Shown here piece by piece: positions 1 through 1,160 of a stretch of 64,000 bases of DNA. The notes below the pieces were generated by a model. That model had not been told where the DNA came from, did no database searches, and worked only from the letters and a program-made list of their open reading frames with translations. Location: the NCBI GenBank assembly GCA_025361735.1, contig JANYKD010000439.1, positions 1 through 64,000 on the forward strand, given 5' to 3'. A program made the translations under genes and the position numbers. Numbering within the stretch: position 1 is the stretch's first letter; every line of letters begins with the position of its first letter. The stretch comes from Phycisphaerales bacterium. Lineage in GTDB: Bacteria > Planctomycetota > Phycisphaerae > Tepidisphaerales > Tepidisphaeraceae.

Positions 1-785
1 CATAGCACTGGAACCAGCTCGATTTTGCAAGTGAGACGGCGAATGGCGGCTTTGAGCGCCTGAGGCGAAATCGGTTTGTTTTCGATGACCATCTCGGCGA
101 TGGAATCGTCTTTGTTTGAGACTGCCTCGATTAACTCTTCCAAATATTGTTTGGCCGACTCTTTGAGATCTTCTGGGATTTCTTGGATGCTGTAATTGAG
201 GCCCACATCGTCGTTATCCTCGTAGATGATGGCCTTCTGATTAACGAGATCGATGACCCCTCTGAGGTAGTCTTCTTTGCCAATCGGAATGAAGACGGCA
301 TAGGCGTAAGCGCCAAGCTTTTTGCGCATCTCGCTGAGAGCATTTTCAAAATTGGCGCCAATTCGATCCATCTTATTGATGAAAGCGATGCGCGGGACCT
401 TGTATTTGGTGGCCTGGCGCCAGACGGTTTCGGACTGGGCCTCGACGCCTTCCTTGCCGTCGAAGACGGCCACGGCGCCGTCGAGCACGCGCATGGAGCG
501 TTCGACCTCGGCCGTGAAATCGACGTGCCCGGGGGTGTCGATGAGATTGATGGTGTAGCGCTCGCCGAAGCGGTCCCAGGGGCAGGTGGTGGCGGCGGAG
601 GAGATGGTGATGCCGCGCTTCTGCTCTTCGGGGTCGAAGTCCATGACGGCGGTGCCTTCATGGACCTCGCCCATCTTATGAATCTTGCCGGTGTAGTAGA
701 GCACGCGCTCGGAAACCGTGGTCTTGCCCGCGTCGATGTGGGCGGCGATACCGATGTTCCTGATCTTGGTCAAATCCCGTGGCAT
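1..785 (-). CDS. fusA: Elongation factor G, N-terminal part (runs off left edge)
   Basis: Minus-strand translation from ATG at 785: [68 protein letters not shown]...[44 protein letters not shown]; GTPase G1/G3 motifs. Missing from the ORF track because the stop is outside the window. Confidence 0.97.
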
Positions 786-830: not shown

Positions 831-861
831 GTAAAATGCAAAACCCGCACGGCCTGTGCGG
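831..861 (-). terminator. Possible intrinsic terminator or attenuator before fusA
   Basis: Minus strand CCGCAC-AGGCC-GTGCGG followed by GTTTTGCATTTT. Confidence 0.4.
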
Positions 862-1108
862 CAATCAGTCTTTTGCGACTGCCGTCCCGGAGTCTTCCGG
901 GAAATACTGGCCCCTGCGGGTCTGTCTCTCGCAATGATTTACGAGGCGTGCTTCGTAGTCGCTGGCGAAGCCCGGGGAGCGATGCTCCCTTCTACATGGT
1001 GGCTCACGCCGACCATGCAGGGCTGGGTCAGCATGAGCCGTTAACGCGGCTCGATCTTCACGGTCGCTCCTTTGTAGGAACAATCTCCAACAGGTCCGAA
1101 GTGGGGAC
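845..1108 (-). ncRNA. Structured leader or candidate ncRNA upstream of fusA made of consecutive short hairpins
   Basis: Perfect or near-perfect stems at 845-861, 866-881, 885-902, 940-957, 975-989, 995-1017, 1022-1032, 1035-1052, 1052-1066, 1068-1079, 1094-1108, downstream of the promoter at 1133-1160. Confidence 0.45.
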
Positions 1109-1132
1109 TCGGCCCGGTCAGGGAAGGGAAAA

Positions 1133-1160
1133 ATTGTAGCGGCGGAGCCGATGGCGTCAA
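1133..1160 (-). promoter_or_regulatory. Sigma70-like promoter upstream of the fusA leader
   Basis: Minus strand TTGACG-16 nt-TACAAT (TTGACGCCATCGGCTCCGCCGCTACAAT). Confidence 0.65.

Follow-up and report, generated by a model that had tools for sequence, protein, structure and literature searches.

A conserved leader ORF and mutually exclusive hairpins before fusA in Tepidisphaeraceae suggest a ribosome-read RNA switch

What is understood of how bacteria keep elongation factor G (EF-G, encoded by fusA) in step with their ribosomes comes mostly from the str operon and from ribosomal protein S7. Attenuator-like structures have been described in the leaders of the rpsL operon and of fusA in streptococci and Pelagibacter, where they belong to the str operon and are presumed to serve ribosomal-protein control (PMC2965389). 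In E. coli, ribosome occupancy of the leader ORF toiL, including occupancy of its start codon, chooses the RNA structure ahead of topAI-yjhQ; toiL responds to any slowing or stalling of ribosomes and controls this toxin-antitoxin operon by masking the ribosome-binding site, with Rho-dependent termination (PMC12121999). In the vmlR leader of B. subtilis, a ribosome stalled in the leader ORF blocks an anti-antiterminator, leading to formation of the antiterminator before an intrinsic terminator (PMC9226507).

We examined the fusA leader on the minus strand of a 64,000-nucleotide stretch of a Phycisphaerales genome (contig JANYKD010000439.1; hereafter the window). Our assessment, at a probability of about 0.65, is that the fusA 5' leader acts as an RNA switch read by ribosomes; since it is EF-G that drives ribosome progress, the simplest purpose would be feedback. 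The ORF, its signals, the exclusivity of two helices and the link to fusA come from comparison of sequences, and the effect of ribosome position comes from a folding model; we infer that termination is the readout, which way the control runs, and that EF-G activity is what is sensed. Features are collected in Table 1.

Table 1. Features of the fusA leader and adjoining sequence in the window.
Feature	Positions	Strand	Remarks
fusA (EF-G), 5' part, continues past window edge	3..785	-	NCBIfam TIGR00484 match, E 1e-105
Terminator-like stem CCGCACAGGCCGTGCGG, then TTTTGCATTTT	833..861	-	Comparable U-tailed stems in relatives
3' domain: ACCCGCAGGGGCC (921-909) and its predicted partner GGCCGTGCGGGT (854-843)	843..921	-	Encloses further hairpins, including 902-885
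Hairpin E, GCTTCG...CGAAGC	950..973	-	Predicted folds; motif CAGCGAC..CGAAGC also in G003, G001, G022, G018
Hairpin D, GGGAGC-ATC-GCTCCC	975..989	-	Predicted fold; similar hairpin in the same place in G003, G020, G018
Hairpin C (strands 3:4), 1020-1008 with 1003-992	992..1020	-	Compensatory changes; GGTC common to B
Helix B (strands 2:3), 1039-1026 with 1014-1001	1001..1039	-	Compensatory changes; excludes A and C
Hairpin A (strands 1:2), GAGCCG-CGTTAA-CGGCTC	1035..1052	-	Stop codon in loop; pairing in 49/50 cells across 10 close members
Leader ORF GTG AAG ATC GAG CCG CGT TAA (MKIEPR, then stop)	1041..1061	-	Compared across 15 leaders
Shine-Dalgarno AAGGAG of leader ORF	1067..1072	-	GGAG exactly 5 nt ahead of start codon
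Promoter of fusA transcript, TTGACG-N16-TACAAT	1133..1160	-	TTGACG 1160-1155, 16 nt, TACAAT 1138-1133

Distribution and genomic setting of the element

When 61 related genomes were searched with the intergenic DNA, nine more members of the family proved to have homologs; these centre on 1001-1072, and each lies immediately ahead of fusA. A covariance model of this core, applied to 398 genomes of the class, gave strong matches (E 1e-29 to 1e-10) in 15 of the 26 genomes of the window's family, those relatives that are named in GTDB being Phycisphaerales/Tepidisphaeraceae MAGs; the next matches begin at E 1e-5. Each of the 15 genomes has one copy, directly upstream of fusA in every case, and no convincing copy was found in other families among the 398 genomes. 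The weak matches away from fusA, with E of 1e-5 or higher, were attributed to chance; one of them, L080, was read, and it has neither a leader ORF nor fusA and apparently lies in coding sequence. A direct look at the 11 family genomes without the element showed fusA with other or shorter leaders in ten, which means that the element is not essential; the eleventh gave no fusA match. A tree of 200 FusA residues lacks the resolution needed for dating the element; it does unite genomes with and without the leader in a single supported group, consistent with an old element that was lost in some of them.

In three of the genomes without the element (G002, G008 and G014), a terminator-like hairpin lies some 45 nt past the promoter. 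Short fusA leaders of this form were seen at L066:1344-1450, L067:1344-1440 and L068:1360-1455, where a strong hairpin GCACGCAG..CTGCGTGC is followed by a T run; in these ORF-less members it is perhaps a second kind of fusA attenuator. Separately, a stretch resembling CGTACTGTCGATATCGT occurs early in the fusA leader of members with and without the leader ORF (minus strand of L074:280-255, L065:2265-2240, L006:1600-1578 and L039:1610-1580), and is possibly a second regulatory element.

The downstream gene is the single close fusA of the window genome, the remaining matches being distant translational GTPases. The fusA unit of the window contains no ribosomal-protein gene, and its leader lacks the rpsL-rpsG-fusA placement by which a ribosomal-protein leader would be recognised. 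Within the family, fusA is separate from rpsG in all six genomes checked: 4 Mb apart in G012, a single-contig genome, and on different contigs in the five others. In other families of the class, sampled at one genome per family, fusA comes after an apparent rpsG end in about half. Being detached from rpsG, fusA in the window's family would be without the ribosomal-protein control of the operon. At the contig end, window positions 1-400 have a GC content of 0.46-0.50 against a window mean of 0.62, and the window's FusA forms a long branch among its relatives, diverging after about residue 140. This end may be a chimera with the fusA of another genome, or a recombinant; it stays clear of the fusA leader.

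The leader ORF and the competing hairpins

The whole element is organised by a short ORF that is absent from an earlier note on this DNA. The minus-strand core opens AAGGAG-CGACC-GTG AAG ATC GAG CCG CGT TAA, and across the 15 leaders the signals stay constant as the bases between them drift. The spacing from GGAG to the start codon is N5 in 14 leaders and N4 in one, the start is GTG in nine and ATG in six, and codon 2 is AAG or AAA (Lys) throughout. The stop is TAA in eight and TAG in seven, and 14 leaders have six sense codons and one has seven, the sole indel being of 3 nt. Start and stop codons swapped only for equivalent ones, together with a single length change of one codon, are the pattern of a translated frame, and on this comparison the ORF is a conserved, probably translated frame with a Shine-Dalgarno sequence, start and stop. 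None of the 15 leader ORFs ends in TGA, the stop of 22 of the 36 long ORFs in the window, a contrast whose statistics are weakened by the relatedness of the genomes; dependence on release factor 1 is possible.

These three signals are the best-conserved part of the element, which argues against a leader that binds EF-G itself or a ribosomal protein and in which the short ORF is incidental. Such leaders have been described for the rpsL operon of other phyla, some of them fusA-proximal (PMC2965389), but with ribosomal-protein genes also absent from the unit we regard a leader of this type as quite improbable here.

As for what the ORF might encode, no conserved run of regulatory codons was found in the 15 leaders, Lys at codon 2 being the only invariant. 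Drift of codons 3-6 makes a charged-tRNA signal unlikely. Nor did we find a conserved arrest-peptide sequence of the ermCL type: the peptides range from MKIEPx through MKTKSF to MKNDLRS, and with six or seven residues and this much variation they are poor candidates for a nascent arrest peptide, being too short and too diverse to act as one; the progress of the ribosome itself is therefore probably what is read.

The promoter and stems listed in the earlier note are all present letter for letter, at the coordinates it gives. No second promoter-like site was found in 700-1400, and direct reading of relatives whose contigs are long enough showed TTGACG (or TTGACT)-N16-18-TAnAnT-like boxes preceding the leader. 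The minus strand of 831-1130 folds far better than its dinucleotide shuffles, at -132.4 kcal/mol versus -103.7 +/- 6.0 (z -4.8; 0 of 200 shuffles equal it). No Rfam family matched at or above its gathering score, and nothing credible appeared even at E up to 10. About ten consecutive hairpins had been proposed; the stems are real, but they do not all stand side by side, since those at 1035-1052 and 995-1017 compete with a helix that had not been listed (helix B). The first of the two contains the stop codon of the overlooked frame.

Strand 2 begins 1-2 bases past the stop codon of the ORF and can pair back with the ORF (hairpin A) or forward with strand 3 (helix B), and strand 3 has strand 4 as its alternative partner (hairpin C). 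Because B and C both need the same GGUC, they cannot coexist. With hand-drawn arms from which bulges were removed, so that column counts lean toward structure, 93.8% of the cells of helix B are paired in the 15 leaders, with three columns changed on both sides, and 96.7% of those of hairpin C in the only 10 leaders in register, with 5 of 9 columns changed on both sides. An arm-swap test on these arms gave 0/20000 for B and 1/20000 for C; its window-based version, which is free of the hand-drawing bias, agrees for both (28/5000 for B, 0/5000 for C) and gave 88/5000 for A, which is weak or replaced in G012 and G015. In an initial alignment limited to 10 near relatives, B had been only weakly supported by shuffles (41/500), so that the case for it rests on the five distant members. 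It is there that two-sided, pairing-preserving changes are clearest: helix B in G012, for example, reads CGGCUCC-GACUGAC/GUCAGUC-GGAGCCG, and across genomes the arms of hairpin C are UGCAUGGUC/GACCAUGCA, UGCACGGUC/GACCGUGCA, UGCGUGGUC/GACCACGCA or GCAAGGGUC/GACCUUUGC.

From their sequences, then, B and C appear as mutually exclusive helices that overlap the end of the leader ORF and are both kept by compensatory changes, with A weaker. Conservation and covariation of B and C in the 15 leaders, directly upstream of fusA, support the structured regulatory leader or attenuator that had been proposed. Further down, the 5' arm of hairpin E is predicted to have part of strand 2 as an alternative partner, with which it would close an outer helix; when arms were swapped, an outer helix around C and D was not supported over the whole leader set.

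Ribosome position, readout and the likely signal

For each of the 15 leaders, a ribosome-sized stretch was masked at sliding positions and pairing probabilities were computed. With no ribosome, C was favoured over B on average (0.56 versus 0.34), B winning in 5 of 15. With the P site at codons 1-3, B was favoured over C (0.73 versus 0.22), winning in 12, 12 and 11 of the 15 leaders at codons 1, 2 and 3, respectively. With the ribosome at the sixth and last codon, C prevailed in all 15 and B in none (0.80 versus 0.03), largely because strand 2 is covered. Covering strand 2 does not account for the shift between ribosome-free leaders and leaders with an early ribosome; that shift reflects hairpin A. 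In G003, G009 and G020 the model never favoured B. Ribosome position is thus predicted by the model to set which helix forms. In the absence of a ribosome, A would usually form and leave strand 3 free for C; a ribosome on the first three codons would break A and allow B; and one at or near the stop codon would cover strand 2 and allow C.

The choice between B and C would then be relayed down the leader, where it most likely determines if transcription ends ahead of fusA or continues into the gene. Premature termination is the likely readout, with Rho or translational control as a possible alternative. A stem with a U-rich tail precedes fusA in about 6 of the 15 leaders (G000, G001, G022, G018, G009 and G019), and that of G019 is a textbook terminator, CCCAGGGA-CUUC-UCUCUCUGGGUUUUUU; a clear intrinsic terminator was not found in the other nine, and thermodynamic folds of whole leaders showed no change in the 3' stem that depends on B or C. 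The sequence ACCCGCAGGGGCC is kept in G000, G003, G001 and G022 and is near-identical in G018; in the long-leader members it is almost invariant (921-909; homologs in L002, L004, L005 and L007), and the hairpin that follows it (885-902 in the window) varies in sequence with its pairing maintained.

The U-tailed stem and the leader's own promoter would also suit a stand-alone small RNA with its 3' end at 833-861 and fusA as no more than a downstream neighbour, akin to the bead-on-string ncRNA that had been considered earlier. We consider this very improbable: all 15 copies abut fusA and none was found elsewhere among the 398 genomes of the class, conservation across the family covers the ORF/B/C core but not the 3' domain, the Shine-Dalgarno sequence, start and stop are conserved, and the central hairpins are alternatives.

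What a ribosome-read switch would sense is a separate question. That the leader senses EF-G activity is plausible: slow translocation would keep ribosomes early in the ORF, B would form and fusA would be raised. More specifically, we tentatively propose, at somewhat less than even odds, that EF-G is autoregulated by its activity, with the leader ORF timing translocation (and recycling) and a switch centred on the stop codon turning slowness into more fusA mRNA. The quantity sensed would, on the same tentative footing, be translocation speed and not an amino acid, a drug or a protein.

EF-G also participates in ribosome recycling, and a ribosome awaiting RF1, or RRF and EF-G, at the stop codon could itself be the signal, covering strand 2 and holding C. 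The stop is fixed at the pivot and is always TAA or TAG where TGA predominates in the window, and C wins in every leader with the ribosome at the last codon; but most ribosome-free leaders in the model already favour C, so a stop-bound ribosome would add little there, and we think this signal unlikely. Equally doubtful is a reading in which the ORF responds to translation stress in general (slow initiation, for instance, or antibiotics that target the ribosome) and the rise in fusA is one response among others with no specific tie to EF-G activity. Leader ORFs on which several drugs stall the ribosome at its start codon are known to act in this way (toiL, PMC12121999; vmlR, PMC9226507), and here too a ribosome on the first codons is predicted to switch A/C to B, but the target is an essential housekeeping factor and not a resistance gene, and no drug-specific stall motif is conserved past Met-Lys.

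Comparison with known leader systems

Should the switch read EF-G activity, as we tentatively prefer, it would sense translocation directly, as part of a feedback loop, and would report naturally on how fast elongation runs. Passing ribosomes would probably set EF-G production through a conserved leader RNA, and in a planctomycete lineage that took fusA out of the str operon a translated RNA switch seems to have taken over. Our search of open papers, with subscription papers outside its scope, found no account of a leader ORF before fusA. The rpsL-operon, streptococcal and Pelagibacter leaders share attenuator-like structures before fusA (PMC2965389), but here fusA stands alone and its leader has an ORF and no Rfam match. 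The amino-acid operon attenuators (trp, his, ilv) likewise have a leader ORF over strand 1 and mutually exclusive hairpins; the fusA leader ORF differs from them in having no run of regulatory codons. As in toiL (PMC12121999), ribosome occupancy of a short leader ORF would decide between RNA structures, although the target there is a toxin-antitoxin operon, whereas here it is fusA, with an A/B/C alternation. The 1:2 / 2:3 / 3:4 logic is the same in vmlR (PMC9226507), a drug-inducible resistance ABC-F gene of Bacillus with an intrinsic terminator, whereas the present target is an essential elongation factor of Planctomycetota and an intrinsic terminator is clear only in some fusA leaders. The attenuator logic of a leader ORF is known; here it appears to be applied to an essential translation factor.
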